NCBI RefSeq assembly: GCF_009687845.1
Contig: NZ_BLAD01000039.1
Coordinates: 62,001 to 126,000 of the forward strand
From: Acrocarpospora corrugata
GTDB taxonomy: Bacteria > Actinomycetota > Actinomycetes > Streptosporangiales > Streptosporangiaceae
Length of the DNA stretch: 64,000 nt
Reading direction: 5' to 3'
Position 1 is the first letter of the stretch; every line of letters begins with the position of its first letter. Position numbers and translations under genes: made by a program. Of the stretch, positions 24,435 through 55,496 are shown piece by piece. The notes beneath the pieces were generated by a model. That model saw only the letters and a list, made by a program, of their open reading frames with translations. It was not told the origin of the DNA and did not search any database.

Positions 24435-24488
24435 TCCGTTGGCCTGTTGTCCCCGGCCACTTCTTGCCAATAGCGGCCGGGCCGCCCG

Positions 24489-24503
24489 CCGCTACTGTAG
24501 CGG
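24489..24503. promoter_or_regulatory. Perfect palindrome CCGCTACTGTAGCGG
   Basis: 7-bp arms around a single T, about 100 bp upstream of the first gene of the rightward PKS operon and next to the start of the AT-richer promoter stretch. The form suits a dimeric repressor such as a TetR-type protein that could respond to the exported product. No such gene is in the window, so this is inference. Confidence 0.45.
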
Positions 24504-24606
24504 TAACTCGATTTCATCGGCCAATCGTATTCAACCCGAATTAACAATTCGCGAGACACGCGAAAAGCACTGTCTTTTCGATGTGAATACTCAAGGAGGT
24601 GACACG

Positions 24607-25443
24607 TTGCTGCAAGCCATCGATCTTGTCAAGCGATATGGCTCGGTCCTCGCATTGGACGGATTCAGCCTGAGTGTGGCGGCCGGTGAAATCGTCGGCC
24701 TGGTCGGGCACAACGGCGCGGGCAAGACGACCTTCGTGGAGATCGTGTCGTACCTGATCCGTCCGGACAGCGGTCACGTGACCATCGACGGCCGTCCTCC
24801 GTCGGCCAACAAGGGCAAGGTCGGCATCGCGCCGCAGCACATCGCCCTCTACCCGTCGATCACCGTGCGCGAGCATCTCGTCCTGTTCGGGAAGCTGGCC
24901 GGCCTGCGCCGCGCCGCGCTGGACAGCGCCATCGAGGAGCTGACCGTCGCGCTGCGGCTCGGCGCGTTCATCGACAGGCGGGAGGCGGGGCTGTCCGGCG
25001 GGCAGCAGCGCCGCGTTCAGGCGGCCACCGCGCTGATCAACCGGCCCGGTCTGCTGCTGCTGGACGAGCCGACCGCGGGCGCCGACCTGGAGACCCGCGA
25101 GGCGATGCTGGACGTGGTCAAGCAGCGCGCCGGCGACGGCGCGGCCATCGTCTACACCACGCACTACCTGCCCGAACTGGTGGAGTTGCAGGCCACCATC
25201 GCGGTCGCCCGCAGCGGCCGGATCATCGCGCGGGGGACCTACGAGGAGCTGGTGGACGGGCTGCCCGGCGAGGTGCGCCTCATCCACGACAACGAGGAGG
25301 AGGTCCGCGTCTCCACCACGCAGCCGGCCGCCACCCTGATCGACCTGCTCAGCCGGGCAGAGCGCCCGATCAGCACGATCGAGGTCCACAACCCCTCCCT
25401 GGACGACCTCTACCGATCCCTGGCGGTCAGCGATGCTTCTTGA
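24607..25443 (+). CDS. ABC transporter ATP-binding protein (drug-export type)
   Basis: 278 residues. Walker A GHNGAGKTT (about residue 37), signature LSGGQQRRVQ, Walker B LLLLDEPTAG and a switch His in TTHYLPEL are all present. A C-terminal extension of about 70 residues matches DrrA/NatA-type exporters. The start is TTG 24607, placed by a near-perfect AAGGAGGTGA six bases upstream. It overlaps the permease gene by 11 bp. Leading the PKS operon, it most likely powers export of, and self-resistance to, the polyketide. Confidence 0.9.
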   Translation: MLQAIDLVKRYGSVLALDGFSLSVAAGEIVGLVGHNGAGKTTFVEIVSYLIRPDSGHVTIDGRPPSANKGKVGIAPQHIALYPSITVREHLVLFGKLAGLRRAALDSAIEELTVALRLGAFIDRREAGLSGGQQRRVQAATALINRPGLLLLDEPTAGADLETREAMLDVVKQRAGDGAAIVYTTHYLPELVELQATIAVARSGRIIARGTYEELVDGLPGEVRLIHDNEEEVRVSTTQPAATLIDLLSRAERPISTIEVHNPSLDDLYRSLAVSDAS

Positions 25444-26227
25444 CACCGGCTACCGCGTCGGGCCGATCGCCGCGCTGCGCGAATCCGTGTACCGGATCCG
25501 CGCGCTGTCGAACCACAACACCATCATCCGGCTCCGCGACCCCGGCCAGACGATCAGCTACGTGGTCATGCCGATGGTCCTGATGCTGGTCCTGAAGCCG
25601 CTCTACGTGCGGGCGGTCGACGGCGGCACCACCAAGGTGGTGACCGGGCTGCTGGTCATGTTCTCGGTGTTCGCGATCTCCATCGCGGGCAACGCGATCC
25701 TGGCCGAGCGGACCTGGAAGACCTGGGACCGGCTCCGGGTGAGCCGGGCGCCGGCCGCCGAGCTGCTGATCGGCAAGACCCTGCCGATGTATCTGGTGAT
25801 GGTCCTGCAGCAGATCATCCTCCTGACGTACGGCTGCCTGGTCATCGGCCTGCCCATCCCCGGCAACATCCCGCTGGTCCTCATGTCCATCCTGGTCTGG
25901 GCGTTCACGCTGCTGGCCATCGGCGCGCTGCTGGCCGCGATCGTGCGCAGCCACGGCGAGCTCAGCGTGATCTCGGACGTGGGCGCGCTGACGCTCAGCT
26001 CACTCGGCGGGGCGCTGGTGCCGCTGAGCCTGATGCCGGACTGGGCGCAGGTCGCCGCGCAGCTGTCGCCCGGCTACTGGGCCCTGCAAATGCTCCAGGC
26101 CGCCGTCGCAGGCGACACGGCCGGCACCCTGCTGCCCGCGGCGATCCTGCTGGGGATCGCGCTGGTCGCCGGCGCGTTCGCGGTTCGCCGGCTCACCCGC
26201 GGCTGGGGCCGCGGCGGGCTGCTCTGA
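25433..26227 (+). CDS. ABC-2 type permease
   Basis: 264 residues with about six membrane spans. A cytoplasmic N-terminal segment with SNHNTIIRLRDPGQTI resembles the coupling region of DrrB-like permeases, and ILAERTWKTWDRLRVSRAP is the conserved intracellular loop. It forms the exporter with the ATPase upstream (11-bp overlap). A 66-bp gap follows before the first PKS gene, so PKS transcription is probably continuous from here. Confidence 0.88.
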   Translation: MLLDTGYRVGPIAALRESVYRIRALSNHNTIIRLRDPGQTISYVVMPMVLMLVLKPLYVRAVDGGTTKVVTGLLVMFSVFAISIAGNAILAERTWKTWDRLRVSRAPAAELLIGKTLPMYLVMVLQQIILLTYGCLVIGLPIPGNIPLVLMSILVWAFTLLAIGALLAAIVRSHGELSVISDVGALTLSSLGGALVPLSLMPDWAQVAAQLSPGYWALQMLQAAVAGDTAGTLLPAAILLGIALVAGAFAVRRLTRGWGRGGLL

Positions 26228-26293
26228 CCTCAATCGGCACCATCGATTTCTCCAGAATAGATTCGGTGATCAGTAGTGAATAGGGGCATGTTG

Positions 26294-29200
26294 ATGAATC
26301 AGCAACATCCACCTGGTGACTCGCAACACGCCGCGGACGAGTCCGATATTGCGATCATCGGCATGGCCGGCCGATTCCCAGGCGCCAATGACGTCGAAAC
26401 GTTATGGCGGAACATCAGCACCGGCGTCGAATCCTTCACGCGATTCTCCGACGCGGAACTGATCGAGGCGGGCGTCCCGGCGGGGACGTTCTCGAAACCG
26501 AACTACGTCCGGAGCCGGCCGATTCTCGATGAGGTCCGCGGCTTCGACGCGGCGTTCTTCGGCTACAACCCGCGCGAGGCCACGCTGGCCGATCCGCAGC
26601 AGCGTCTCTTCCTCGAATGCGTGTGGGAGGCGCTGGAGTCGGCCGGTTACGGCTCGTCCGGCAACCGCGGCACGGTCGGCGTGTTCGCCGGCATGAACAT
26701 CAGCGGTTATCTGCTGACCCGGCTGCAGGCGTTCGCGATGGGCATGGATCCGTCCGCGCTGATGATCGGCAACGACAAGGACTCGCTGGCCACGAACGTG
26801 TCGTTCCGGCTGGACCTGTCCGGGCCGAGCGTGAGCGTGCAGACCTTCTGCTCGACCTCGCTGGTCGCGCTGCACCTGGCCAGCGAGGCGCTGCGCCGGG
26901 ACGAGTGCGACATGGCGCTCGCGGGCGGGGTGTCGATCCGGGTTCCGGACCGGACCGGTTACCTCTGGGAGGAGGGCGGCCAGGAGTCGCCCGACGGCCA
27001 TGTCCGGACCTTCGACGCCGAGGGCCGGGGCAGCATGTTCGGCGACGGCGCGGCCGTGGTCGCGCTGAAGCCCCTGGGCCGGGCGATGGCCGACCGGGAC
27101 ACGGTGCTCGCGGTGATCCGCGCGTCGGCGATCAACAACGACGGCGCGATGAAGTTCAGCTACCTGGCCCCCAGCATCGACGGCCAGCGCCGCTGCGTGT
27201 CCAAGGCGATCGAGAAGGCGGGCGTGGACCCGGCCCGGATCTCGTACGTGGAGGCGCACGGCACCGCCACCGAGGTCGGCGACCCGATGGAGGTCGCGGC
27301 GCTGACCCGGGCGTTCGGCCAGACCGAGAAGAAGCAGTTCTGCATCCTCGGATCGATCAAGCCGAACGTCGGCCACCTGGACCGCGCCTCCGGCGTGACC
27401 GGCCTGATCAAGGTCGTCCAGTCGCTGCGGCACGAACTGATCCCGGGGACGCTGCACTACAACGCGCCCAACCCCGAGATCGACTTCGACACCAGCCCGT
27501 TCTACGTGACGGCCCAGCCCACCCCCTGGCCGCGCGAGGCCGACCGGCCGCGGATCGCCGGGATCAGCTCGCTGGGCATGGGCGGCACCAACGCGCACGC
27601 CATCATCTTCGAGGCCCCCCTCCCGGCCCCGCGCCCCGCGCGCCCGCGCCGCTGGCAGATCCTCCCGGTGTCGGCCAGGTCGGCCGCCGCCGCCGAGCGG
27701 GCGCTGACCCGGCTGGGCGCGGGCCTCACCGCCGAACCCGGCCTGGACCTGGGCGATGTCGCCTACACCCTGCAGGTGGGCCGCAAGGTCTTCAACCACC
27801 GCAAGGTCGTCATCGCGGACGGCAACGCCAAGGCCGCCGCGGTGCTCGCGGACCCCGCTGGACCGCTGGGCCGTACCGACACGACGGTCGGCCGCAAGAC
27901 CGGGTTCCTGATCGCCGGGGTCGGCGAGCAGTACCCGGGCATGGTCGCCGCGCTGTACCAGGAGGAGCCCGGCTTCCGGGCGGACGTGGACGAATGCGTC
28001 AGCGTGCTGGGCCTCACCGAGGCGTCCCAGCTGTCCGACATCTTCGTCCCGGCCGCATCCGGCGGGAAGGCCCCCGACCTGGCCGCCCTGCTCGGGCGGA
28101 CCGGCGACGCCGCCCCCGAGGCCACCCCGAACGCGCATCTGATCCAGCCCGCCGTGTTCGTCGCCGAGTACGCGCTGGCCCGGCTGCTGATGAGCTGGGG
28201 CGTCAAGCCGGAGATCATGGTCGGCTACAGCCTCGGCGAGTACGTCGCGGCCTGCCTGTCGGGGGTGCTGTCGCTGGCCGACGCGCTCCGGCTGGTCGCC
28301 TACCGGGCCAAGCTGATCACCTCCCAGCCCGAGGGCGCGATGCTGGCCGTGGCCGCCGACGAGAAGCGGCTGAAGGCGGTGCTGGGCGACCTCGATCTGG
28401 ACGTCGCGGTCCGCACCGGCTCGCAGCTGGTGCTGGCCGGTCCCGAGGAGACCGTCACGGCCGCCGCCGCGCTGCTCAGGGCGGCCGAGATCGGCTGCCG
28501 CCGGCTCCAGACCACGCACGCGTTCCACTCCAGGATGCTCGCCCCGATCGCGGCCGAGCTGACCTCCTGGATCAACGCCAACGTGACGCTGAACCCGCCG
28601 GTCATCCCCTACGTCAGCAACGTCACCGGCGCGATCGCCACCGCCGAGGTCGTCACCGACCCCGGCTACTGGGCCCGCCACATGTGCGAGACGGTCGAGT
28701 TCGGCGCCGGGCTCGCGCACGTGCTGCACGGCGGTGACCTGGCCCTGGCCGAGATCGGCCCAGGGCAGTCGCTCGGCGCGCTGACCCGCGGCCACCCCGA
28801 CTGCGACCGGAACCAGTGGCCGCTGATCGTCACCACCCTGCCCGGCCAGGGCGACCAGGTCGAGACGCTCGCCGCCACCGCGACCGCGGTCGGCAAGCTC
28901 TGGCTGGCCGGCGTGCCGGTCGACTGGGAAGCCCTGCACACCGGTACGGACAGCGACTGGACACCCGGCCGGGTGCCGCTGCCCACCTACCCGTTCGAGC
29001 GCCAGGACTACTGGCTGGAGATCGACCAGTCGGCGCTGGGCACCGGCGCGCCGATGCTGGACGAGAGCGACCCCACCAGCATCGCGACCGCGCTGCCGCG
29101 CCTGCCGGACGAGCGGTGGATCAACATCCCGGTGTGGCGGCAGACCGCGCCGCAGCTGGTCCGCGAAGAAGAGCTCACCAAGTGGCTGATCTACGCCGAC

Positions 29201-31030
29201 GCCGGCCTGGCCGACACGCTGACCGCGTCGGTCCACCGCGCGCTGGACGCGCTCGGCCACGAGATCGTCCTGGTCCGGCCCGGCGAGGCCTACCAGGACG
29301 GCCCTGACGGCATCGTCGTCCGGCCGGGTTCCCAGGAGGACGTCGTCGCCGCGCTGCGCGCGCTCGGCGGCCGGGGCTTCCAGCCGGAGCGAGTGGTGCA
29401 CCTGTGGACCGCCGACCCGGCCCCGGCCGAGGGCGACGCCACCCAGGAGTGCCTCAAGCGCGGCCTGCACACGCTGGTCTCCTTCGCCCGCGCGGCGGTC
29501 GACCTGGGCCTGCCGGCCTGGGCGCTGGACATCGTCACCGTCGGCAGCCAGAAGGTGCTGACCGGCGACCCGATCCTGCCCGAGCGCAACACGATGCTCG
29601 GCCCGACCAGGCTCATCCCGGTCGAGTACCCGAGGGTCAAGACCCGCCTGATCGACATCGACGCCGACACCGGACCTGCCGCCCTGCGGGGGCTGCTGGC
29701 CGAGCTGCGGGCCGACCCCGTCGACCAGGTCGTCGCGCTGCGCGAAGGCCGCAGGTGGACGCCCGGCTACGAGGTGCTGGACGCGGCCACCATCGACAGG
29801 ACGAACCCGACCGTGGCGGTACGGCGCGGCGGAACCTACCTGGTGACCGGCGGCCTGGGCGGCATCGGCCTGGGCATGGCCGAACTGCTGGCCGAGAAGT
29901 ACCAGGCCAACCTGGTCCTGATGGGCCGCACCCCGGTCCCGCAGAAGGACCAGTGGAGCCAGATCCTGGCCGCCCCCACCACCGCCGACGAGGTACGGCG
30001 GCGCGTCGAAGGGCTGCGCCGGTTGGAGGGCAACGGCACCAAGGTCATCACGGTGGCCGGCGACGTGTCCCAGGTGGCGGACGTCCGGCGGGCGGTCGAC
30101 GCCGCGATCGAGACGTTCGGCGAGCTCAACGGCGTCCTGCACTGCGCCGGCGTACCGGCCGTCGGCCTGATGCAGTTCAAGACGGTGGCCGACATCGATC
30201 GGACGCTGGCGCCGAAGGTCGCCGGTTCGCTGGCCCTGGCCGAAGTGCTGAAGGACGTGCCGGTCGACTTCGTCGCCCTGTACTCCTCCACCACCTCCGC
30301 CACCGGCGGCGGCGCCGGCCAGGTCGACTACTGCGCGGCCAACGCCTTCCTGGACTCCTTCGCGCTCAGCGACCCGCTGCCCGGCACGCTGGTCACCTCG
30401 GTCGACTGGTGCGAGTGGACCTGGAACGGCTGGACCGAGGGCCTGGAGAACTACGACGAAGGCTCCAAGCAGTACTTCACCTGGTACCGGGGCCTGTTCG
30501 GGCTCAGCTACGAGGACGGCTTCGAGACCCTGATGCGGGTGCTGGGCAGCGGCGAGCGGCATGTCGTCGCCTCCACCCAGGACTTCGCGCCGCTGGTCGC
30601 GATGAGCCGCAAGTCCTCGATCGAGAGCCACCAGGCGACGGTCAAGAAACTCAGGGACGCGTTCGGACGGCACCCACGGCCCGACCTGTCGACCGCGTTC
30701 GTCGAGCCGCAGAACGAGACCGAGGAGAAGATCGCCGAGGTGTGGACCGAGGCGCTCGGCCTGGAGTCGGTCGGCGTGCACGACAACTTCTTCGAGCTCG
30801 GCGGCAACTCGCTGCTCGGCATGGAGATCATCACGGAGGTCCGGAAAGCGCTTGAGCTGTCCTACCTGCCGCCGCACATCCTCTACCAGTCGCCCACGAT
30901 CTCATCGCTCGCCGAAGCGGCCACCGCGGGCGAGGCCAAGGAAGAGCAGACGGCCGACGTACGCGAACAGCAGCGCTCGTCGCGCATCGAACAGCGGCGC
31001 AACATGCTCCGGAGCGGGAGGACGTCATGA
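26294..31030 (+). CDS. Type I PKS, one module: KS-AT-KR-ACP
   Basis: 1,578 residues from ATG 26294 (AGGGG seven bases upstream; GTG 26276 and ATG 26288 are alternatives). KS occupies about residues 15-440, with Cys186 in [10 protein letters not shown] and His in VEAHGTAT and NVGHLDRAS. AT spans about 520-870, with Ser646 in GYSLGEY and HAFH at 742-745, pointing to malonyl-CoA. A KR (NADPH site VTGGLGGIGLG, Tyr1346 in QVDYCAAN) follows, then an ACP with Ser1506 in LGGNSLL. The C-terminus is a short Arg-rich tail instead of a helical docking domain. Predicted to add a C2 unit and leave a hydroxyl. It is closely alike in order and sequence to the second module of the 40,770-50,654 protein. Confidence 0.93.
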   Translation: MNQQHPPGDSQHAADESDIAIIGMAGRFPGANDVETLWRNISTGVESFTRFSDAELIEAGVPAGTFSKPNYVRSRPILDEVRGFDAAFFGYNPREATLADPQQRLFLECVWEALESAGYGSSGNRGTVGVFAGMNISGYLLTRLQAFAMGMDPSALMIGNDKDSLATNVSFRLDLSGPSVSVQTFCSTSLVALHLASEALRRDECDMALAGGVSIRVPDRTGYLWEEGGQESPDGHVRTFDAEGRGSMFGDGAAVVALKPLGRAMADRDTVLAVIRASAINNDGAMKFSYLAPSIDGQRRCVSKAIEKAGVDPARISYVEAHGTATEVGDPMEVAALTRAFGQTEKKQFCILGSIKPNVGHLDRASGVTGLIKVVQSLRHELIPGTLHYNAPNPEIDFDTSPFYVTAQPTPWPREADRPRIAGISSLGMGGTNAHAIIFEAPLPAPRPARPRRWQILPVSARSAAAAERALTRLGAGLTAEPGLDLGDVAYTLQVGRKVFNHRKVVIADGNAKAAAVLADPAGPLGRTDTTVGRKTGFLIAGVGEQYPGMVAALYQEEPGFRADVDECVSVLGLTEASQLSDIFVPAASGGKAPDLAALLGRTGDAAPEATPNAHLIQPAVFVAEYALARLLMSWGVKPEIMVGYSLGEYVAACLSGVLSLADALRLVAYRAKLITSQPEGAMLAVAADEKRLKAVLGDLDLDVAVRTGSQLVLAGPEETVTAAAALLRAAEIGCRRLQTTHAFHSRMLAPIAAELTSWINANVTLNPPVIPYVSNVTGAIATAEVVTDPGYWARHMCETVEFGAGLAHVLHGGDLALAEIGPGQSLGALTRGHPDCDRNQWPLIVTTLPGQGDQVETLAATATAVGKLWLAGVPVDWEALHTGTDSDWTPGRVPLPTYPFERQDYWLEIDQSALGTGAPMLDESDPTSIATALPRLPDERWINIPVWRQTAPQLVREEELTKWLIYADAGLADTLTASVHRALDALGHEIVLVRPGEAYQDGPDGIVVRPGSQEDVVAALRALGGRGFQPERVVHLWTADPAPAEGDATQECLKRGLHTLVSFARAAVDLGLPAWALDIVTVGSQKVLTGDPILPERNTMLGPTRLIPVEYPRVKTRLIDIDADTGPAALRGLLAELRADPVDQVVALREGRRWTPGYEVLDAATIDRTNPTVAVRRGGTYLVTGGLGGIGLGMAELLAEKYQANLVLMGRTPVPQKDQWSQILAAPTTADEVRRRVEGLRRLEGNGTKVITVAGDVSQVADVRRAVDAAIETFGELNGVLHCAGVPAVGLMQFKTVADIDRTLAPKVAGSLALAEVLKDVPVDFVALYSSTTSATGGGAGQVDYCAANAFLDSFALSDPLPGTLVTSVDWCEWTWNGWTEGLENYDEGSKQYFTWYRGLFGLSYEDGFETLMRVLGSGERHVVASTQDFAPLVAMSRKSSIESHQATVKKLRDAFGRHPRPDLSTAFVEPQNETEEKIAEVWTEALGLESVGVHDNFFELGGNSLLGMEIITEVRKALELSYLPPHILYQSPTISSLAEAATAGEAKEEQTADVREQQRSSRIEQRRNMLRSGRTS

Positions 31031-34000
31031 CGGAAACCGACTACGACTCGGCGGTGGCGCTGATCGGCATGTCCGGTCGATTCCCCGGCGCGGACAGCGT
31101 CGCGGAACTGTGGCGCAACGTACTGTCCGGGATCAAGGGACTGCGCGAGATCACCGACGCGGAGCTGCGCGAGACCGGCGTCGAGCCGGGGCAGATCGCC
31201 GACCCGCGCTACGTGCGGATCGGCGGCCCGCTGGCCGACCTGGACAAGTTCGACGCGACGGTCTTCGGGATCAACCCCCGCGAGGCCGAGATGATGGACC
31301 CGCAGCACCGGCTGTTCCTGGAGTGCTCGTGGGAGGCGCTGGAGAGCGCCGGCTACTGTCCCACCGACGTGCCTGGACAGGTCGCGGTGTTCGGCGGGTG
31401 CGGGTTCCCCGACTACGTCGTGCAGAACATCGCCCATCTGGCCCGCCAGCCCGGCGGGGCGATGCTGATCGCGATCGGCAACGAGCGTGACTCGCTGGCC
31501 TCGCTGGTGTCGTACAAACTGGGTCTGCGCGGCCCGGCCGTGTCGGTGCAGACGTTCTGCTCCACCTCGCTGGTGGCGGTGCACCTGGCCTGCCAGAGCC
31601 TGCTCACCTACGAGTGCGACATGGCGCTGGCCGGCGGCGCGTTCACGCCGCTCCCCCAGCCGGCCGGCTACCTGTACGAGCAGGGCGGCATCATGTCGCC
31701 GGACGGGAAGGTCCGCAGCTTCGACGCCGAGGCGGGCGGCACCGTGATGGGCAGCGGCGTCGGCACGGTGGCGCTCAAGCGCATGTCGGACGCGATCGCC
31801 GACGGCGACGTGATCCACGCCGTCATCCTCGGCTCGGCCGCCAACAACGACGGCCGGATGCGGGCCGGCTACACCGCGCCGGGCGTGGACGGCCAGGCCG
31901 AGGTGATCGAATCGGCGCTCGGCGTGGCCGGGGTCAAGCCCGACACCATCGGGTACGTCGAATGCCACGCCACCGGCACCATGCTGGGCGACTCGATCGA
32001 GCTGGCCGCGATGAACCGGGTGTTCACCCAGCCGCGCGAGATCCCGGCCGTGCTGGGTTCGCTGAAGCCGAGTCTGGGCCACCTGGACCGGGCGTCCGGG
32101 GTGACCGGGCTGATGCGGGCCGCGCTGAGCCTCAAGCACGAGCTGCTGCAGGGCGTGCCGGACTACGTCCAGCCGAACCCGGCGCTGGCCACGGCGCAGG
32201 ACCGGTTCACCGTGCTGACCGAGCACCGGCCGTGGCCCGAGGGTCCGCACCCGCGCCGGGCCGGGGTCAGCTCGTTCGGCCTCGGCGGCACCAACGCGCA
32301 CGTCGTCCTGGAGCAGGCCCCGCCGCGCGAGGTACGCCAGGCCAGGCCGGGCCCGCACCTGCTGACGTTCTCCGCGGCCGACGAGAACGCGCTGAACGAG
32401 CTGGGCGAGAGGCTCGCCGGCCATCTGGCCGGCGAGTCCGGCGAGGACCTCGCGGACGTGGCGTTCACGCTGCAGATGTCACGCGGCGGCTTCGCCCGGC
32501 GGCGCGCGGTCGTGGTCGCCGACCGCGACGACGCGGTCCGGGCGCTGGCCGACTCCTCCCGCTGGATCAACGCCAAGACCCAGCGCCGCAACCCGAAGGT
32601 CCGCCTGGTCACGCCGGACGGCGTGCCGGAGACCTGGTGGCCAGAGCTGCTCGCGGCGGTCGACGCCGTGTTCGGCATCGAGGACGGCACCGACCGCCAC
32701 GACGCGCTCGGCGCGCTGTCGGACGGGCTGCGCCGCCTGGGCGTGCAGATTCCGCGCGAGGACCCGGGCCCGGCCACCGGCGTCGAGGAGATCACCGTCG
32801 CCCCCGCCGAGGGCGTGCCCGCGGCCGAGTGGCTGCTGGCCACGCTGGCCCGGCTGTGGCAGGCCGGCAGCACGATCGACTGGACCGCGCTGCACCGCGG
32901 CGCGGGCCGCCGGGTCGAGCTGCCCACCTACCCGTGGCAGCGGCGCCACTACTGGGTCAAGGCCAACCCGAACATGCAGGCCGCCCCGGTCAGCAACGAC
33001 AAGACCTTCGACCGGTCGAAGTGGACCTACCTGCCGACCTGGAAGCAGCGCCCGTTCGCGGTCGCCGACCTGGACGAGCGGCTGCGGGCGGGCGGCCCCT
33101 GGCTGGTCTTCGCCGACGACGCCAGGGGCGAGGCCCTGATCGACCGCCTGAACACGGCGGGCGCCGAGGTCACCGCGGTACGGCGCGGCCCGGCCTTCAC
33201 CCAGGACGACGCCGGAGACTTCACCCTCCAGCCGGACAAGCCCGACGACATGGCCGACCTGCTGTACTCGCTGGTGGTCGCGCCACGCGCGATCGTCCAC
33301 GGGTTCAGCCTGGCCGGGGTCACGCCGGAACCGGGCCAGGACCCGGTCGAGCACTTCGACGCCGAGCAGCGCCGCGGCTTCCTGTCGGTGCTGGCGCTGG
33401 CCAGGGAACTGGTCGACAACACCGGCTCCGCGCCGCGCGCCGAACTCGCCCTGCTCACCTCGCAGGCCGTCGGCGTGCTCGGCTCGGACCTGCGCCACCC
33501 CGAGCAGGCCACCCTGGCGGCGCTGGCCCCCAGCCTGTCCCAGGAGAACCCCCGGATCCGGGCCAGGACGATCGACGCCGACACCGTCGAGCCCGGCGAC
33601 GAGGCCGCGCTCGGGCAGCTCACCACCCAGCTCCTGGCCGCGATCCTCACCCCGCACGAGGGCCCGGTCGCGGTCCGCGCCGGCGAGACCTGGCTGCGGA
33701 CCTACGAGCAGTTCCCGATCGACGAACTGACCGACGAGACCCGCCCGATCAGGAACGGCGAGACCGTGCTGATCACCGGCGGCCTCGGCGACGTCGGGCT
33801 CGTGCTGTCGCGGCACCTGGCCGGCGCGTACGGCTGCAACCTGGTGCTCACCGCCAGGTCGCCGCTGCCGCCCCGCGAGGAGTGGGACGCGTTCCTGGCC
33901 GAGACTCCCCCAGGCGGGGAGCGCACCGCCCGGCACATCGGCAACATCCTGGACCTGGAGAGCCGGGGCGCGGCCGTGCTGTGCCTGTCCGCCGACGTGG

Positions 34001-34845
34001 CGGACGAGGAGCGGATGGCGGCCGTCGTCGCGGCCGCGGTCGAGCGGTTCGGCGGGATCGACGTCGTGGTGCACGGCGCGGGCGTGCAGGACGGGGCGTA
34101 CTTCAACTTCGCCCACCTGATGGACCGCGACCAGTGCGACGCCCACATGGCGGCCAAGGTCAAGGGCTTCCACGTGCTGCAGAAGGTGCTCGGCGGGCAG
34201 GCCCCCGACCGGCGGATCACGCTGTCGTCCATCGCGGCGGTGCTGGGCGGCATGACGCTCGCGCCGTACGCGGCGGCCAACGCGGCGCTGGACGCCTACA
34301 TCCGGCAGGCCAGGGTGGGCGACCGGGGCCGCTGGGTGACCGTCGACTGGGACACCTGGAGCATCGACGCCGGCCGCCTGGAAGGCCACAGCGAGGCCGT
34401 CGTCGGCTTCGCGATGGCCCCGGCGGAGGGCGTCGACATCTTCGAGCGGGCCCTGTCGGCCACCGACAGGGTCGGGCACCTGGTGATCTCGACAGGACCG
34501 CTGGAAGGCCGGCTGACGCAGTGGGTCACCGGCGACATCCACAGCGTGGACGACGCCTTCGACGACCAGGAGCGCCACCCCCGGCCGGACCTCAACAACC
34601 CGTACGTGGAGCCGAAGGAGGGCACCGAGGCGGCGCTGGCCGACATCTGGTCGCGGGTGCTGGGCATCGAGCCGATCGGCGCCACCGACAACTTCTTCGA
34701 GCTGGGCGGCCACTCGCTGCTCGCGATCGAGCTGACCACCAGGATCCGCAAGGCGCTGAACGCGTCGGTCCCGGTGACCGGCCTGCTGGAGTGCCCGACG
34801 GTGCGCCTGCTGGCCGAGCTGCTCGACGACCGGGAGGCGGAGTGA
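31027..34845 (+). CDS. Type I PKS, one module with deleted AT: KS-(AT remnant)-KR-ACP
   Basis: 1,272 residues, ATGA overlap with the previous PKS. KS about residues 9-430 (Cys178 in [17 protein letters not shown] and SLGHLDRAS His motifs). The linker strand [10 protein letters not shown] (479) and the post-AT linker [13 protein letters not shown] (632) are only 153 residues apart, against 405 in the neighbouring PKS, and no GxSxG is present: the AT core is gone while its flanks remain. The KR looks intact ([11 protein letters not shown]; Ser and Tyr1081 in APYAAAN) and so does the ACP (Ser1230 in LGGHSLL). Extension here would need an AT acting in trans, or the module does not elongate. The acyl-CoA dehydrogenase gene overlaps its stop. 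Confidence 0.92.
32463..32934 (+). other. AT deletion scar inside PKS module
   Basis: The stretch between the KS-AT linker strand and the post-AT linker of the 31,027 gene. It encodes about 150 residues with no catalytic Ser, no HAFH/YASH motif and little similarity to AT cores. The last part ([17 protein letters not shown]) matches the region just after an AT. About 250 residues are missing relative to the 26,294 module, and the frame is kept. Confidence 0.85.
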
Positions 34846-36002
34846 AGCAACCGGAGTACCTGCGGGCGGTCCAGGCGTTCGCCCGCAGGGAACTGGTCGG
34901 CCAGGACGCCTACCTCGACTCGCTGGCCGAGGCCCCGCTCCCGCTGTACGAGCGGTTCGCCGACACCGGCCTGGCGAACTGGTGGGTGCCGAAGGAGCAC
35001 GGCGGCCCCGGCCTCAGCCTGGAGGAGAGCGTCCGGATCGTCGCCGAACTCGCCTACGCCGACGCGGGCGCCGCCTTCACCCTGTTCATCCCGGTCCTGA
35101 CGACCAGCATGCTCTCCTGGTACGGCTCCCCCGAACTCCGGGACCACTACCTGGGCAAGCTGGTCGCCGGGAACGGCTTCTGCGCCACGCTCGGCAGCGA
35201 GCACGCGGCCGGCAGCGAGCTGGCCCGGATCACCACGACCGCCAGGAGCGAAGGCGACCACATCGTCCTGAACGGGGAGAAGGCGTTCTCCACCAACGCC
35301 GACTTCGCCGAGTTCCTGGTGGTGATCGCCCGCGCCGAGGACGACCCGGCCGGCTACCTGGCCGTGCTGGTCCCCCGGGACACGCCGGGCGTCCGGATCG
35401 ACAGACGGTGGGACGTGCTGGGGCTGCGCTCCTCGGCGACCTACCAGGTGACGCTGGCCGACTGCCGGGTGCCGGCCGCCAACGTGCTGCGCGGCAACGG
35501 GCTGCGGCTGCTGGAGGTGGGCCTGAACGCCAGCCGCATCCTGATCGCCACGACCGCGCTCGGCATCTCCCGCCGGATCCGCGACGTGTGCCTGGAGTAC
35601 GGCAGGTCCAAGCAGGTCAAGGGCTCCGCGCTGGCCAACAACGCGGTGTTCGCGGCCAAGCTGGGCCAGTTCGAGGTGCAGATCGACGTGATGGCCAACC
35701 AGTGCCTGGCCGCGGCCCGCCGGTACGACGAGATCGCGGCCCGGCCCGACGCGGGCGAGGAGTTCCTCCGGGTGGGCACGCTGAAGGCGGCGCTCACCAC
35801 GAAGATGTTCTGCGGCCAGACCGGCTGGCAGATCGCCTCGGCCGCGTCGGAGATGTTCGGCGGCGTCGGGTACACCCACGACGCGGTGATCGGCAAGCTG
35901 CTGCGCGACGTGCGGTACGTGTCCATCGTGGAGGGCGGCGACGACGTGCTGCGGGACCTGGTGTTCAGCCGGTACGTGGTGCCGGTGTCGAAACGGTCGT
36001 GA
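34842..36002 (+). CDS. Acyl-CoA dehydrogenase family protein of the PKS operon
   Basis: 386 residues; GTG start in a GTGA overlap with the AT-less PKS gene. The ACAD fold shows an N-terminal helical part, [16 protein letters not shown] (FAD loop), [15 protein letters not shown] and a C-terminal [15 protein letters not shown] with the Glu at the catalytic position. It differs clearly from the FkbI-like protein at 38,460. Coupling to the PKS suggests it oxidises a carrier-bound intermediate, or an alternative acyl-ACP precursor. It could also take part in extender-unit synthesis. Its 3' end overlaps the convergent PPTase gene by 38 bp. Confidence 0.83.
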
Positions 36003-36609
36003 CAGCGGTCGTAACGACGGCGCCCGCATAACCGGGCGCCACGTCCAGCCAGCGAAGGGAACGCGACGAACCCACCGTCGCGTTCCCTTCCGGCGTCACC
36101 AGCGTGTCCCGCAGGCCGGCCAGGCCGACCCCGACCGCTTTGACATACGCCTCCTTGGCACACCAGAACCGGAAATATCCCTCTACGGGGGACGCGGCCC
36201 GGGTCAGGTGGTCGACCTCGGCGGGCTGGTACAGGTGCCGGGCCATGGCCAGGTGGTCCAGGTTGTGGCGGACGCGCTCGACGTCGACGCCCACCCGCAG
36301 GCCCGGCGGAGCCACCCCGATCAGCGCCCACTCCTCCGAGCGCGACAGGTTGAAGTCGATCGGATGGCCGACCAGATACGGCCGGCCGTTGTCCTCCGCG
36401 CCGAACACCAGCCCGGCCGGCGGCACGCCGCCGAGCCGGCCGAGCACCGCGCGCAGGACGCCGTGCGCGACCGTGAAGCGGCGGCGCTCGACCGGGTCGG
36501 CCAGCGCCGCCGCACGGGCCCTTTCCTGGGCGGAAAGCAGCGGGGCCCACCTCGCGCCGTCAGGCCGATCGAGGTGAACCCGCCACACGCAGGGTTGCCT
36601 CACATCCAT
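35965..36609 (-). CDS. Sfp-type 4'-phosphopantetheinyl transferase
   Basis: 214 residues. GVDVERVR (Mg-binding Asp and Glu) and [16 protein letters not shown] (W-x-x-K-E-A-x-x-K) are the two hallmark motifs; [15 protein letters not shown] corresponds to the substrate-binding N-x-S-H-S strand. It installs the phosphopantetheine arm on the ACPs of the cluster, using CoA. The ATG overlaps the thioesterase end by 10 bp. Last gene of the leftward operon; its 3' end overlaps the convergent dehydrogenase gene and includes an 8-bp-stem hairpin. Confidence 0.92.
36019..36040. terminator. Hairpin inside the 3' end of the PPTase gene
   Basis: GGCGCCCG at 36,019-36,026 pairs with CGGGCGCC at 36,033-36,040 around a CATAAC loop, 17 bp downstream of the rightward operon's last stop codon. 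It has no T-run. It could end or slow the rightward transcripts where the convergent operons meet, yet must be read through as coding sequence for the PPTase. Confidence 0.45.
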
Positions 36610-37391
36610 TTGAGCAGGGCTTTGGAGATGAGCTTGTGCGTCAGCGCGGCCTGCTCGAACACGGCGAAGTGGCCGCCGACGAACGGCTGGAGCTCGTACT
36701 CCTTGGTGGTCTGCTCGCCCCACGGCGTCACGGTCTCGGCTTTGATCCGGGAGTCGTCGGTGCTGGGCATGGCCGTGATGGGCAGGTTGAGCGGCTTCTC
36801 CTGGCGGTACTCGTAGGTCTCCTTGACGGTGAAGTCGGCGACCACGGCCGGGAGGATCATGTCCAGCACGCCGGGGTCGGCCAGCAGCCACTCCGGCGTG
36901 CCGCCCAGCTCACGGAGCATGGCCACCACCTCGGGCCTGCTCATCTGCCCGACCGGCTTGCCGTCCTCGTAGGCGAGCTGCGGGGCGACCGAGCCGGACA
37001 CGAACAGGTGCACCGGCGGCGGGCCGCCGCGGCGGCGGATCTCGCGGGCCAGCTCGAACACGACGAGCGCGCCGAGGCTGTGGCCGTACAGGGCGTATCT
37101 GCGGTCGACCGAGCCGAGCGAGACGTCGGCCAGGATGATCTCGGCCAGGTCGGCGACCAGCGGGCCCATCCGGTCGTAGGCGGGTTCCCTGAGCCTGCTG
37201 TCCCGGCCGGGGAGCTGCATCGGCTGGACGGCCACCCCGGGCAGGACGCGCTGCCAGCTCCGGTAGGTGGAGGCGGCGCCGCCGGCGTGCGGCAGGCAGT
37301 ACAGCGCGAGCGCGCCGGGGCCGGCCCCGGTCTGGCTCGCGAACGGCATCCAGCGGCCGATCAGATCGTCAACGCTCATCGCCAGCCCCAT
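36600..37391 (-). CDS. Type II (editing) thioesterase
   Basis: 263 residues from ATG 37391 (GGAG seven bases upstream; ATG 37379 also possible). CLPHAGGAAS near residue 32 is the hallmark N-terminal motif of type II thioesterases. The nucleophile is Ser in YGHSLGAL, an acid follows in the TPEWLLADP region or later, and the His is in FVGGHFAVFE. It removes stalled or wrong acyl groups from PKS ACPs. It is encoded between the extender-unit cassette and the PPTase. It is the only thioesterase seen for the cluster. Confidence 0.92.
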   Translation of the reverse strand: MGLAMSVDDLIGRWMPFASQTGAGPGALALYCLPHAGGAASTYRSWQRVLPGVAVQPMQLPGRDSRLREPAYDRMGPLVADLAEIILADVSLGSVDRRYALYGHSLGALVVFELAREIRRRGGPPPVHLFVSGSVAPQLAYEDGKPVGQMSRPEVVAMLRELGGTPEWLLADPGVLDMILPAVVADFTVKETYEYRQEKPLNLPITAMPSTDDSRIKAETVTPWGEQTTKEYELQPFVGGHFAVFEQAALTHKLISKALLKWM

Positions 37392-38460
37392 CGACGATCT
37401 CCAGGTGGACGTACGGCGGGGGCGGCTGGACAGTGGTCAGGTCGGCCTCCAGCACCACGTGCACGCCGTCCCTGCTGACCTCGCGGAACCCGGCGAAGGC
37501 GTAGGTGATCTGCATCATCCGGTTCCGGCCGGTCTCCACGAAGTCGGCCCGTACACGCGCGCCGGCCGCCTGGGCCAGCCGCATGATGTGGTTGAGCAGC
37601 ACCATGCCGACGCCGCGGGACATCACCCGGCAGGACATCAGCATCATGTTGAGCCGCCAGACCCGCTCGCCCTTCTCCACCAGGGCGAGGCCGATCTTGC
37701 CGTACCCGCCGAACCTGTCGGTCAGGGAGGCGACCAGCAGCAGGTGGCCGGGGGACTCGCGGAGCTCGTCCAGCTCCTCGTAGGAGTAGGTGCGGCCGGT
37801 CGAGTTGAGCTGGTTGGTGCGGACCGTCAGCTCCTCGGCCCGCTGCAGGTCGTCCCGTACGGCCGGGGCGATGGTGAACCGCATCTCCAGCCCGGCCAGG
37901 AACTCCTCGTTGGTGCCGACGAAGCCGGCCTCCAGCTCGTCCCTGGCGGCCTGGCCCTGGTACATGATGCGGCGCTGGGCGGACTCGTCGGTGACGAACC
38001 GGGGGATGAACTCCGGCCGGGCCAGCGCCTCCTCCAGGTCCAGGATGTCGACCAGGGTGACCTCGGGCAGGCTGTGGCCGACCTCGCCGCGCTCGAACTC
38101 CTGGTCGTCGATGAACGCGAACGCGTCCAGGCCCAGGTTGAGCGCCTTCGCGAGGCGCGCGATCGAGTCGGATTTGGCGTTCCAGTTGATCTGCGGGTGC
38201 AGGAACATGTCCTCGATGCCGAACTCGCGGAGTTTCTCCAGCGCGGCGTCGCGGTCGTTCTTGCTGGCGATCGAGTGCAGCACGCCCATCTGGTCGAGCC
38301 GGTGGATGTGCGCCACCACCGCGGGCCGCAGGGTGACGTCGCCGTCCTCCAGCAGCACGCCGTCCCAGAGGGTGTTGTCCAGGTCCCAGACCACGCACTT
38401 GATCCGGCCCCGAACCGGCTTCTCCGGGAGGACAAAGGGGGTTTCGTCGACCACGGTCAT
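37369..38460 (-). CDS. fkbH: FkbH-like HAD-family glyceryl-ACP loading protein
   Basis: 363 residues. The HAD nucleophile motif VVWDLDNTLWDGVLLEDG (about residues 22-39) and FIDDQEFER (acidic motif) lie in the N-terminal domain. A C-terminal acyltransferase-like domain has LVASLTDRFGGYGKIGLAL. FkbH proteins load 1,3-bisphosphoglycerate onto a stand-alone ACP as a glyceryl thioester, the first step to hydroxy- or methoxymalonyl-ACP. ATGA overlap with the dehydrogenase before it, and the thioesterase starts within its end. The adjacent ACP and two dehydrogenases complete the set up to hydroxymalonyl-ACP. Confidence 0.93.
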   Translation of the reverse strand: MTVVDETPFVLPEKPVRGRIKCVVWDLDNTLWDGVLLEDGDVTLRPAVVAHIHRLDQMGVLHSIASKNDRDAALEKLREFGIEDMFLHPQINWNAKSDSIARLAKALNLGLDAFAFIDDQEFERGEVGHSLPEVTLVDILDLEEALARPEFIPRFVTDESAQRRIMYQGQAARDELEAGFVGTNEEFLAGLEMRFTIAPAVRDDLQRAEELTVRTNQLNSTGRTYSYEELDELRESPGHLLLVASLTDRFGGYGKIGLALVEKGERVWRLNMMLMSCRVMSRGVGMVLLNHIMRLAQAAGARVRADFVETGRNRMMQITYAFAGFREVSRDGVHVVLEADLTTVQPPPPYVHLEIVDGAGDER

Positions 38461-39608
38461 CAGATGATCTCCCGTTCTGCCTGGCCAGCGATGGTGATCC
38501 GCTGGATCTCGTTGCTGCCTTCGATGATCTCCATCACCTTGGCGTCCCGGTACAGCCGCGCCACCGGGTAGTCGTGGCCGCATCCGTTCGCGCCGTGGAT
38601 CTGGACCGCCTCGGACGCGTGCCTGGCGGCGGCGGTGGAGGCGAAGTACTTCGCCACCCAGGTCGCCATGATCGTGGACGCCTCGCCGGCGTCCTTGAGC
38701 CGACCGGCCTCCGCGACGAGCAGGCGGGCCGCCCGCGCGTCGGTGACCATGTCGGAGAGCTTCGCCTGGATCAGCGGCAGCTCCTTGAGCAGCGTCCCGC
38801 CGACGGTGCGGCGGGACGCGTACGCGGCGCACGCCTCCAGCGCGGCCTGGATGATGCCGACGGAACCGGTCGCCACGCTGTAGCGGCCGAGGTCCAGGGT
38901 GCCGGTCAGCACCATGCCGGCGGTGAAACCGCTCGGGCCGAGCAGCGCGTCCGGGCCGAGCACGACGTCCCGGAAGGAGACCTCCGCGATCATCGACGCC
39001 CGGGTGCCGAGCATGTCCTCGATCGGGGCGACATCCACGCCGGGGCTGTTCCTGGGGACCAGGAACGCGCCGATGCTGGTGGCCGTGCGGGCGAACACCA
39101 GGAACAGGTCGGCCCGCTGGCCGTTGGTGATCCACTTCTTGACGCCGTTGAGCACCCACCCGCCGTTCTTGGCCACGACGTTGCTGGAGATCCCGGAGGC
39201 GTCACTGCCGGCGCCGGGCTCGGACAGGCAGAACGCGGCGAGCACGTCCCCCCGGCTGAGGGCCGGCGCCCACTGCTCGCGCTGGGCCGGGCTGCCCCAC
39301 CGCTGCACCGCCCACGACACCATCGTGTGCACGGTGAGCAGGCTGCGGACCGAGGAGCAGCCCCGGCCCACCTCCTCGTGGACCTCGCCGAGGGTGACCA
39401 GGTCCATTCCCGCGCCGCCCACCTCCGGGGGGAGGAAGGGGGCCCAGAGCCCGGCGGCGGTCATCCGCTCCAGCAGTTCCTCGGGCACCCGGCCCTGCCG
39501 GTCGTACGCGTCCGCGTACGGCACGATGTGCGTGTCGACGAACGCGCGGGCGGACTTCCGGTCGGTGACCCGAAGCGTGTCCGGCGCGCTCTCAGCCAGG
39601 ATCGCCAT
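38460..39608 (-). CDS. fkbI: FkbI-like acyl-CoA dehydrogenase (extender-unit cassette)
   Basis: 382 residues. FCLSEPGAGSDASG (FAD loop), WVLNGVKKWITNG and the C-terminal VMEIIEGSNEIQRI with the catalytic Glu identify an acyl-CoA dehydrogenase. In FK520- and ansamitocin-type cassettes such a protein oxidises the glyceryl-ACP derived intermediate toward 2-hydroxymalonyl-semialdehyde/malonyl-ACP together with FkbK. It lies between FkbH and the ACP, as in those cassettes. A second dehydrogenase at 34,842 could share this role, but gene position favours this one. Confidence 0.88.
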   Translation of the reverse strand: MAILAESAPDTLRVTDRKSARAFVDTHIVPYADAYDRQGRVPEELLERMTAAGLWAPFLPPEVGGAGMDLVTLGEVHEEVGRGCSSVRSLLTVHTMVSWAVQRWGSPAQREQWAPALSRGDVLAAFCLSEPGAGSDASGISSNVVAKNGGWVLNGVKKWITNGQRADLFLVFARTATSIGAFLVPRNSPGVDVAPIEDMLGTRASMIAEVSFRDVVLGPDALLGPSGFTAGMVLTGTLDLGRYSVATGSVGIIQAALEACAAYASRRTVGGTLLKELPLIQAKLSDMVTDARAARLLVAEAGRLKDAGEASTIMATWVAKYFASTAAARHASEAVQIHGANGCGHDYPVARLYRDAKVMEIIEGSNEIQRITIAGQAEREII

Positions 39609-39609
39609 G

Positions 39610-39858
39610 TCAGACCCGCGCGGGGGAAAGCCGGCCCACCAGCTCCGCCATGGTGTTGGCGGTCCGGAAGTTGTCGATCTTCAGCTCGTCGTTGGGGATG
39701 GCGATCGCGAACGTCTTCTCGATGAACATCACCAGCTCCATCGCGAACAGCGAGTTCACGAAACCCAGGGCGAAGATGTCCTGGGACTCGTCGATCTCCG
39801 CCTGCGGGTAACGGGAGCGGACGAAGTCGAGGATCTGGTCCTTGGTGCTGCCGGACAT
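39610..39858 (-). CDS. fkbJ: FkbJ-like discrete acyl carrier protein
   Basis: 82 residues. The phosphopantetheine site is Ser in GFVNSLFAMEL; the F-V-N-S-L form, in place of the usual G-x-D-S-L, is typical of FkbJ/Asm14-type carriers that hold the glyceryl and hydroxymalonyl unit. One base separates it from the dehydrogenase gene. It is the scaffold on which FkbH, FkbI and FkbK act. Confidence 0.92.
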   Translation of the reverse strand: MSGSTKDQILDFVRSRYPQAEIDESQDIFALGFVNSLFAMELVMFIEKTFAIAIPNDELKIDNFRTANTMAELVGRLSPARV

Positions 39859-39882: not shown

Positions 39883-40728
39883 TTAGTTGGCGTAGGTGTA
39901 GAAACCGCGGCCCGACTTGCGGCCGTGCAGGCCCGCGTCGGTCATCTGCTTGAGCAGCGGGCAGGGGCGGTACTTGCTGTCGGCGTAGTGCTCGTAGAGC
40001 ACCTCGACGCTGTAGAGGATGGTGTCGACGCCGATCAGGTCGGCCGTCTCCAGCGGGCCCATCGGGTGGCCGAAACAGCTGCGGAACACCTCGTCGACGG
40101 ACTCGGCGGTGGCGACGCCCTCGTGCACGAGGAACGCGGCCTCGTTCACGGTGAGCATCAGGACCCGGTTGGACACGAAACCGCAGGCGTCCTTGACGTC
40201 GATCGCCTTCTTGCCCATGGCGGTCAGCAGGTCGCGGGTGCGCTCGACGGTCTCGGCGGTGGTGTGGAAGCCGGGGATCAGCTCGCAGGCCGGCTTGGCC
40301 GGGACCGGGTTCATGAAGTGCACCCCGACCACCTTGTCGGGGCGGCCGGTGACGGCGGCGACCTTGGTGATCGGGATCGCGGAGGTGTTGACGATGAAGA
40401 TGGTGTCGGGCCCGCAGACCGCGTCCATCGTCTCGTACACCGACCGCTTGACGTCCCAGTTCTCCGTCACGTTCTCGATGACGACGTCGGCCTTGGCGAC
40501 CGCCTCGGCGCCCACCGCGGTGGTGATCCGGGACAGCACGTCGTCGGGGTCCAGGGCCGGGCCGCCCATCAGGCGGCTCATCCTGGCGTTGCGCCAGATG
40601 GTGGCACGGGCCGCCGCGAGGATCTCCTCGTTGGTGTCCACCAGCACCACGTCGTGGCCGGTCTGGGCCAGGTTCTGGGCGACGCCGACTCCCATCACGC
40701 CAGCGCCCACTACACCGATTACCGTCAT
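39883..40728 (-). CDS. fkbK: FkbK-like 3-hydroxyacyl-CoA dehydrogenase
   Basis: 281 residues. VIGVVGAGVMGVGVAQ is the NAD Rossmann motif, VHFMNPVPAKPACELI carries the catalytic His, and CGFVSNRVLMLTVNEA is the conserved dimer/active-site helix of 3-hydroxybutyryl-CoA dehydrogenases. In the extender cassette it oxidises the glyceryl-ACP hydroxyl. GGAGAGG precedes the ATG. It starts 41 bp after the PKS gene at 40,770 and opens the cassette. Confidence 0.92.
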   Translation of the reverse strand: MTVIGVVGAGVMGVGVAQNLAQTGHDVVLVDTNEEILAAARATIWRNARMSRLMGGPALDPDDVLSRITTAVGAEAVAKADVVIENVTENWDVKRSVYETMDAVCGPDTIFIVNTSAIPITKVAAVTGRPDKVVGVHFMNPVPAKPACELIPGFHTTAETVERTRDLLTAMGKKAIDVKDACGFVSNRVLMLTVNEAAFLVHEGVATAESVDEVFRSCFGHPMGPLETADLIGVDTILYSVEVLYEHYADSKYRPCPLLKQMTDAGLHGRKSGRGFYTYAN

Positions 40729-40769
40729 GACCTCTCCGTTTCTCTGGTTTGTCGTGCTGTCGGTGGTGC

Positions 40770-50650
<9,881 letters not shown>

Positions 50651-50654
<4 letters not shown>

Positions 50655-55456: not shown

Positions 55457-55496
55457 CTGTCGAGCCTTTCCAGTAGCGAGGGTGGTGGGTCGGCGG

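Follow-up and report, generated by a model that had tools for sequence, protein, structure and literature searches.

We analyzed a polyketide synthase (PKS) gene, here PKS2, in 64,000 nucleotides of Acrocarpospora corrugata (NZ_BLAD01000039.1, positions 62,001–126,000; this whole stretch is the window, and coordinates prefixed C39 refer to the same contig). PKS2 encodes a module with ketosynthase (KS), ketoreductase (KR) and acyl carrier protein (ACP) domains and without an acyltransferase (AT). A cis-AT module is normally pictured as loading its own carrier. Based on sequence comparisons, PKS2 is probably the terminal extending hydroxymalonyl module of a polyol assembly line, loaded in trans by an embedded AT of a neighbouring module that carries the motif GYSLG. 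Genome searches indicate that the AT loss is an old, fixed state common to several families.

Pfam detects the KS, its C-terminal extension with the KS–AT linker (residues 383–508), the KR and the ACP (Table 1), and finds no AT. The catalytic residues of the KS (Cys178, His314, His352), the KR (Ser, Tyr, Lys, Asn) and the ACP (Ser1230) are all present. An earlier sequence-only reading had described a missing AT core with both linkers and these residues kept, and Pfam, a residue check and profile comparison bear this out. Its linker distances need small corrections: the 405 residues given for the upstream gene, PKS1, are right, with YTLQ as the motif there, and the FTLQ-to-LPTYP spacing in PKS2 is 152 residues rather than 153. 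The line has eight embedded ATs for nine KSs, in agreement with its description of one module without an AT in a cis-AT line.

The same gene was found in many other genomes. We searched 345 genomes of the order with a 212-amino-acid (aa) query that spans the AT remnant and its linkers. At E ≤ 0.001, 283 genomes gave matches, mostly weak and partial, and 31 genomes, A. corrugata included, matched at E ≤ 1e-26. In 30 of the 31 (29 besides A. corrugata) a single place covers the query and leaves no space for an AT; in the other, G193, the query halves lie on two contigs and the space for an AT cannot be judged. The 26 remnant regions that were aligned are 54–89% identical to that of the window, with shared blocks around [10 protein letters not shown] and ARLWQAG..IDW. 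A pattern scan of named genomes matched at least 592 stretches, at least 519 of which encode some relative. Among the matches listed, 79 loci were kept: 22 (L044–L061, L085, L089, L096, L098) are relatives over the AT-less region, and the other 57 are weak matches, chiefly to the post-AT linker. These 22 come from Herbidospora, Acrocarpospora, Nonomuraea, Microbispora, Saccharothrix, Labedaea, Streptantibioticus, a Streptomyces and a Catenulisporales metagenome-assembled genome (MAG). The AT-less gene is also present in the Streptomycetaceae and Pseudonocardiaceae.

To compare residues we used 24 sequences (PKS2, the 22 relatives and Streptantibioticus cattleyicolor). All 18 rows that cover the KS cysteine keep it, all 23 that cover the KS His, Lys and His keep these three, and the ACP serine is present in all 24. 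Only two Streptantibioticus sequences, L058 and L059, depart from the KR residues checked. The comparison indicates that the AT-less PKS2 is under constraint as an enzyme. In the lines of L058 and L059 the last keto group of the chain may be left unreduced, since the KR active-site residues of the AT-less terminal module depart there.

The genome of A. corrugata is a draft of 170 contigs, and an assembly error or a recent deletion in this strain could in principle produce such a gene. We give this explanation next to no weight, because the same AT-less gene recurs in many genomes and families. The AT-less architecture is present in the 23 other sequences, and a KS/KR/ACP protein is listed in all five Herbidospora type strains (PMC4599437; here and below, statements from cited papers refer to excerpts of them). 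Assembly error was refuted as the cause by this recurrence and by the short linker spacing in 24 of 24 sequences. The in-frame deletion described in the sequence-only reading is not confined to this genome; according to the genome searches and the KS tree, it is an old state across families.

A hidden AT was also ruled out, as Pfam finds none, hhalign gives no AT-core alignment and the remnant is predicted to be small. Compared with four AT-bearing modules of the same line, the profile of the region aligned over the post-AT linker only. A 717-residue model had a poor KS (mean pLDDT 46), so the linker region (KS–AT linker, remnant and post-AT linker; 23 sequences) was modelled by itself with AlphaFold. 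This structure prediction gave a mean pLDDT of 82, with ten-residue blocks across the remnant at 77–95, and a compact small element with no folded AT: a strand (97–101 in model numbering), helices at 110–122 and 130–143, a strand at 159–163 and then the post-AT helix. The linker-to-linker spacing of the 24 sequences is 79–183 residues, below the size of an AT in every case, a range that gives the remnant the look of a variable spacer. Of the parts compared in 15 loci, the remnant is conserved least. In 12 distant rows its identity is 45–57%, with 63–76% for the KS–AT linker and 82–89% for the KS half, the last figure being for 11 rows, as L030 is misaligned in that half.

Based on Foldseek, the best PDB match of the linker-region model is OzmQ KS1 from oxazolomycin biosynthesis (4oqj; E 3.5e-14, 249 columns, root-mean-square deviation 8.6, TM 0.61 on the query), and many KS–AT didomains rank below it. 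A profile search of PDB sequences gave one continuous 4oqj match, spanning the linker, a partial AT-like segment and the post-AT linker (E 5.9e-30); most other chains, including the top-scoring 7zma, align with the two linkers piecewise or with just one of them. We take OzmQ to count as AT-less, which fits its short spacing in the alignment. In OzmQ KS1, as in PKS2, both linkers flank a segment too short for a whole AT, although the AT-like segment of OzmQ is longer. Because 4oqj matches both in fold and as a continuous profile, PKS2 looks like a more strongly reduced form of the partial AT deletion seen in a solved KS, and it has the make-up of a vestigial-AT module, with both linkers around a reduced AT. 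PDB chains labelled 'AT-less polyketide synthase' also match both linkers. The statement in the sequence-only reading that linkers differ in classical trans-AT systems is therefore not general.

The genes near PKS2 point to the extender unit. The block from the 4'-phosphopantetheinyl transferase (PPTase) to the 3-hydroxyacyl-CoA (coenzyme A) dehydrogenase, with FkbH and a discrete ACP, is read as a gene set for hydroxymalonyl-ACP. Counterparts of FkbH, FkbI, FkbJ and FkbK (ZmaN, ZmaE, ZmaD and ZmaG) thus lie beside the PKS; FkbH scores above its curated cut-off, and the others were assigned by Pfam family and context. No O-methyltransferase (FkbG, of the methoxymalonyl-ACP pathway) was found among the genes scanned, which are part of those lying between PKS2 and PKSe and further right. 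Past the discrete-ACP genes the PKS order is PKSe, PKSd, PKSc, PKSb and PKSa, and the line has a loading module with KSQ followed by three further CoA-type modules.

KS trees were built from 52 rows and, with Labedaea, S. parmotrematis and Saccharothrix, from 58 rows; neither holds trans-AT KSs. The KS of PKS2 falls in one large clade with those of PKS1 and of the two PKSe modules, PKSe1 and PKSe2. In the 52-row tree, KSs of the window pair with those of S. cattleyicolor modules as follows: PKS2 with M11, the terminal AT-less module (100/99), PKSd with M8 (99/97), PKSe1 with M9 (100/99) and PKSe2 with M10 (98/92). In the 58-row tree the values are 100/99, 100/99 and 100/100 for the first three, and a lower 94/85 for PKSe2 with M10. 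On the 52-row tree, the label 'noAT' requires three changes, one of which (G161_23258) is spurious, since the frame there separates KS from AT.

On the S. cattleyicolor plasmid pSCATT (L123), the AT-less module (1154 aa) directly follows a gene with two KS-AT-KR-ACP modules, and after it come relatives of the FkbI-type dehydrogenase (56%), the thioesterase (37%) and the ABC membrane protein (42%). This gene order is that of the published butyrolactol table, in which orf18 has 1,169 aa and S. cattleya proteins are the closest homologues of the PKSs orf11, 14 and 15, at 71–76% identity (PMC5355916). Like the window, the butyrolactol A cluster of Streptomyces sp. TP-A0882 and pSCATT have FkbH, ACP, acyl-CoA dehydrogenase, 3-hydroxyacyl dehydrogenase and thioesterase genes, and the run of hydroxymalonyl modules ends in an AT-less module (PMC5355916, PMC5932044), the S. 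cattleyicolor KSs being orthologous. The A. corrugata line likewise has a run of GYSxG KS-AT-KR-ACP modules with the orthologous AT-less module. The lines differ in the hydroxymalonyl run: butyrolactol lacks PKS1 and has four modules of this type, the first of them AT-less as well, whereas the window has five of that type with only the last AT-less. For butyrolactol, seven modules are written ahead of the AT-less 8th and loading is by AT/ACP (PMC5932044), in contrast to the KSQ loading, three CoA-type modules and adjoining type II block of A. corrugata.

Labelling of butyrolactol A gave six acetate pairs, one propionate and four hydroxymalonyl pairs, or 11 units, with C1–C8 hydroxymalonyl-derived, including C1–C2 and C7–C8 (PMC5355916). 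The extension modules number 3 + 1 + 2 + 2 + 2 + 1 = 11, and two of them lack an AT: the 8th (second of 10-16; KS/KR/ACP) and the 11th (10-18; KS/DH/KR/ACP, DH being dehydratase) (PMC5932044). Since 11 modules match 11 labelled units, both AT-less modules must extend, and by our count the unit added by each is hydroxymalonyl. As the orthologous butyrolactol-type M11 must extend and C1–C2 is labelled as hydroxymalonyl, PKS2 most likely extends with hydroxymalonyl by analogy.

The motifs of the embedded ATs suggest which of them could load PKS2. The ATs of PKSd, PKSe1, PKSe2 and PKS1 read GYSLG, as do those of all 12 PKS1 orthologues examined, and PKSa, PKSb and PKSc read GHSxG. GYSxG has been described in ATs for ACP-bound units (two zwittermicin ATs) and GHSxG in ATs for CoA units (PMC4207774). 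The best PDB sequence match of the PKS1 AT is the zwittermicin ZmaA-AT (4qbu, 8.4e-49), which is specific for hydroxymalonyl-ACP and reads GYSFG; the excerpt names no AT-less module as served by it (PMC4207774). We propose that the PKS2 KS would be handed the chain by PKS1, or by PKSe where a line lacks a separate PKS1. FkbH and the FkbK-type and FkbI-type enzymes would build the hydroxymalonyl unit on the discrete ACP, and the ACP-type (GYSLG) AT of PKSe, PKS1 or PKSd would load it in trans onto the PKS2 ACP, which would hold hydroxymalonyl while the PKS2 KR reduces the beta-keto group. A common ancestor would have lost the AT core, leaving a short folded plug after the KS–AT linker.

All GYSxG ATs in the clusters examined sit in modules neighbouring the AT-less one. 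There are four in A. corrugata, Labedaea and Saccharothrix, two in S. parmotrematis, S. cattleyicolor and genome G531, and three each within the stretches scanned of G042, G161, G170 and G198, where PKS1 lies outside those stretches. In S. cattleyicolor and G531, there are two GYSxG ATs for four hydroxymalonyl-type modules. The S. cattleyicolor M8 AT (L123:422-10750) is degenerate, with GHGVG at the nucleophile and pieces missing, and the orthologous PKSd of the window keeps GYSLG; in the M8 AT of G531 (G531:C24:2-9610, L165) no GxSxG was found. In S. parmotrematis, M9 (the PKSe1 equivalent; G346:C45, about 266527-275496, L143) has a shortened AT with GHGTG for GYSxG, apparently an independent loss. 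The sequences indicate that ATs are lost at at least three positions, M11, M8 and M9; this tallies three events across few clusters and is not a statistical result. The picture of a single AT-less module therefore holds for A. corrugata; in relatives other hydroxymalonyl-type modules of the line have also lost the AT. Among CoA-type modules of the same clusters, every AT match examined keeps the serine of GHSxG or GQSQG, except one GHCLG; three ATs without an initial motif call turned out to be GQSQG, with the serine kept.

The absence of PKS1 from Saccharothrix and Labedaea is not a simple absence, and that explanation was dropped: PKSe there has a third module, and in the KS tree the third modules are lineage-specific duplicates rather than PKS1 orthologues. 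The tree indicates that PKS1 is an extra hydroxymalonyl-type module, a relative of the M10 type. Because PKS1 is extra in the window and the third PKSe module was duplicated within the Labedaea and Saccharothrix lineages, the number of modules in the hydroxymalonyl-type run seems to change easily. A wider proposal, which we offer tentatively, is that consecutive modules working on an ACP-bound extender form a shared loading pool from which ATs are lost repeatedly (an ancient loss in M11, others in M8 of the butyrolactol line and M9 of S. parmotrematis). Individual ATs would be dispensable because similar ATs are adjacent and the unit is carried by a diffusible ACP; at the extreme, loading could proceed without any AT, straight from the discrete ACP.

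The sequence-only reading left three possibilities, namely that the module borrows an AT, receives its unit in another way or does not extend, and borrowing is the best supported. The lender might be a discrete AT, for which that reading had suggested a search. Of 14 AT matches in the A. corrugata genome one is free-standing (C39:153828-154616, about 17 kb beyond PKSa and 28 kb right of the window), and it could load malonyl-CoA onto PKS2 as in an ordinary trans-AT system, making the last unit malonate. Relatives of it lie near the cluster in four of four further genomes, placed as in A. corrugata, so that all five family clusters checked have a discrete AT nearby. Its motif, GHSVG with NAFHS, is of the CoA type, and it more simply serves its neighbours, which encode a FabF-like KS, FabZ, FabG, a GcvT-like protein and an ACP. 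None close was found beside three sister clusters. In four other carriers of the cluster the search gave one close relative, in Saccharothrix (62%) on a contig other than that of the PKS cluster; for Labedaea, S. parmotrematis and the S. cattleyicolor plasmid (the chromosome being outside the search) the best matches by E-value were 35–37% and lay in long PKS frames. The butyrolactol labelling also gives hydroxymalonyl at C1–C2 (PMC5355916). We rank the discrete AT second as loader, because its motif is CoA-type and the search of the four other carriers found a close relative only in Saccharothrix, on another contig, and consider it unlikely. Loading by a housekeeping FabD-like AT from elsewhere in the genome is very improbable; other short AT frames exist (C58, 363 aa; C57, 329 aa), yet malonate would be expected from them and no genetic link ties them to the cluster.

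PKS2 might instead merely reduce, hold or release the finished chain. It is AT-less, terminal by the order we assume and near a thioesterase and an extra acyl-CoA dehydrogenase, and KR residues depart in two Streptantibioticus relatives. However, the KS cysteine and both histidines are kept in all covering rows, so this KS is no KSQ, and butyrolactol needs 11 extensions from 11 modules, the PKS2 orthologue among them; we think it improbable that PKS2 does not extend. An AT might also be unnecessary, either because the KS uses the hydroxymalonyl of the discrete ACP for condensation directly or because the unit moves from ACP to ACP. The AT losses seen hit only modules whose unit would be ACP-bound, which speaks for this, but PKS2 relatives keep their own ACP serine in 24 of 24 sequences and every cluster examined keeps at least two GYSxG ATs, and we regard an AT-free route as quite improbable.

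Several points count against loading of PKS2 by a neighbouring GYSLG AT. ZmaA-AT is barely ahead of a PKS chain, 8xjy, as the match of the PKS1 AT (8.4e-49 vs 2.2e-48). M8 and M11 of S. cattleyicolor form long branches in both KS trees and are flagged unsure. The identities of 71–76% concern orf11, 14 and 15, which are other PKS genes than orf16–18 (PMC5355916). S. cattleyicolor and G531 stand in for the butyrolactol producer through gene order and size, the identity of the unit comes from published labelling, the order PKSe–PKS1–PKS2 is assumed, and we infer the choice of the AT that would load PKS2. The relative of the discrete AT is 76–87% identical and lies 16–17 kb beyond PKSa in all four further genomes. 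The published predictions place AT(mm) in the first extension module, although labelling puts the propionate at the 7th unit, and they give the ATs of 10-17 as AT(m) (PMC5932044, PMC5355916). Because these predictions disagree with the labelling in places, it is the module count, rather than the AT predictions, that carries the argument.

The trans-AT PKSs proper, AT-less throughout and with KSs unrelated to cis-AT neighbours, differ from the A. corrugata line, which has its eight embedded ATs and in which the PKS2 KS groups with PKSe1, PKSe2 and PKS1 in trees free of trans-AT KSs. Oxazolomycin has a discrete AT, OzmC (PMC6164871). Modules 2 and 5 of the haliamide PKS, like PKS2, are AT-less in a line otherwise with ATs; a standalone malonate AT was proposed there (PMC6274090), in contrast to the embedded ATs for an ACP-bound unit that are the candidates here. 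In the 'pks-1' cluster of five Herbidospora type strains, a KS/KR/ACP protein of 1261–1265 aa adjoins a KS/AT/KR/ACP protein of 1567–1575 aa, and gene sizes and domain strings match the line of the window (Komaki 2015, PMC4599437). The excerpts of that account do not discuss the missing AT, hydroxymalonyl or the mechanism; the product is drawn from malonyl and methylmalonyl predictions and compared to antifungal polyenes. The excerpts of open-licence literature covered, to which the FEMS 2015 butyrolactol genome paper and PMC4611616 (AT-less KS structures) do not belong, contained no discussion of AT-less hydroxymalonyl modules. Relative to these excerpts the KS/KR/ACP string is already published, and the reading of hydroxymalonyl extenders as sharing embedded ATs is the new part.

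A conserved AT-less module amid modules that all use one ACP-bound unit offers a natural experiment on the sharing of ATs. It hints at which ATs are dispensable, and also that units delivered on an ACP may be easier to share than those delivered as CoA esters, which would be of use in engineering polyol polyketides. The step from cis-AT to AT-less can be tested in one orthologous set with intact, decaying and absent ATs.

Table 1 PKS2, its domains and neighbouring genes (positions in the window)
Feature	Position	Strand	Basis or remark
ABC transporter ATPase and membrane subunits	24439..26227	+	gene scan; adjoins PKS1/PKS2 in relatives
PKS1, KS-AT-KR-ACP; AT residues 544-830 (~27905-28765), GYSLG/HAFHS	26276..31030	+	Pfam, motif reading
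PKS2, AT-less module KS-KR-ACP, 1272 aa, single open frame	31027..34845	+	open reading frame, Pfam, orthologues
PKS2 KS domain	31048..32148	+	Pfam residues 8-374; Cys178 (VQTFCSTS), His314 (VECHATGT), His352
PKS2 KS-AT linker, kept	32356..32550	+	Pfam, CurL-like / RhiE-like linker, residues 444-508
PKS2 AT remnant, residues 518-600	32578..32826	+	alignment, profile comparison, model (compact beta-alpha-alpha-beta element, then post-AT helix)
PKS2 post-AT linker with LPTYP (LPTYP start 32920)	32827..32976	+	alignment and profile comparison
PKS2 KR domain	33763..34362	+	Pfam residues 913-1112
PKS2 ACP domain, Ser1230 (GGHSLL)	34633..34824	+	Pfam residues 1203-1266; Ser in 24/24 rows
Second acyl-CoA dehydrogenase, directly 3' of PKS2	34842..36002	+	gene scan
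PPTase	35965..36609	-	gene scan
Type II thioesterase	36600..37391	-	gene scan
FkbH (glyceryl-ACP formation)	37369..38460	-	TIGR01686, 283 bits, cut-off 147
Acyl-CoA dehydrogenase, FkbI/ZmaE type from context	38460..39608	-	Pfam family
Discrete ACP, FkbJ/ZmaD type from context	39610..39858	-	Pfam family
3-hydroxyacyl-CoA dehydrogenase, FkbK/ZmaG type from context	39883..40782	-	Pfam family
PKSe, two KS-AT-KR-ACP modules; ATs ~47934-48806 and ~42957-43841, both GYSLG	40770..51845	-	open frame; true start inside it, upstream of first KS (KS begins ~50564)
PKSd, KS-AT-KR-ACP; AT GYSLG ~52931-53791	50651..55546	-	domain and motif reading
PKSc, module with CoA-type AT (GHSQG)	55497..60872	-	domain and motif reading
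PKSb, module with CoA-type AT (GHSVG); continues to C39:128312	60904..64000	-	domain and motif reading

The discrete AT belongs to a block at C39:137290-165427 (L011-L012) that also encodes two condensation-domain proteins, an AMP ligase, a class V aminotransferase, ABC genes, a beta-helix protein, the FabF-like KS protein, the GcvT-like protein, FabZ, FabG, an ACP and a SARP regulator. Nine genes of this block were sought in four further genomes. Eight of them were present in the same region in all four (discrete AT, 744-aa FabF-like KS protein, GcvT-like, FabZ-like, ACP, both condensation-domain proteins and class V aminotransferase); the AMP ligase is clear in G042 only (83%) and at about 30% in the other three. 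Because the block genes recur beside the PKS in four of four genomes, the block is probably part of the same supercluster as the PKS line. Its enzymes may attach another acyl chain to the polyol.

Genome G140, whose orthologue lies on C45, has a second, more distant match (44–52%) to the AT-less region at C51:126058-126744. In S. cattleyicolor, the first AT of L123:35587-43425 is the one that reads GHCLG, a cysteine replacing the nucleophile serine. The second acyl-CoA dehydrogenase is also found 3' of PKS2 in Streptosporangiaceae loci, Saccharothrix, Labedaea and the Catenulisporales MAG; L058 and L061 gave only matches of about 30%, and L059 ends before that point. Around the first KS histidine (window 31957) all 23 covering rows of PKS2 orthologues read ECHA, with Cys before and Ala after the histidine, whereas most other KSs of the A. 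corrugata line read EAHG.

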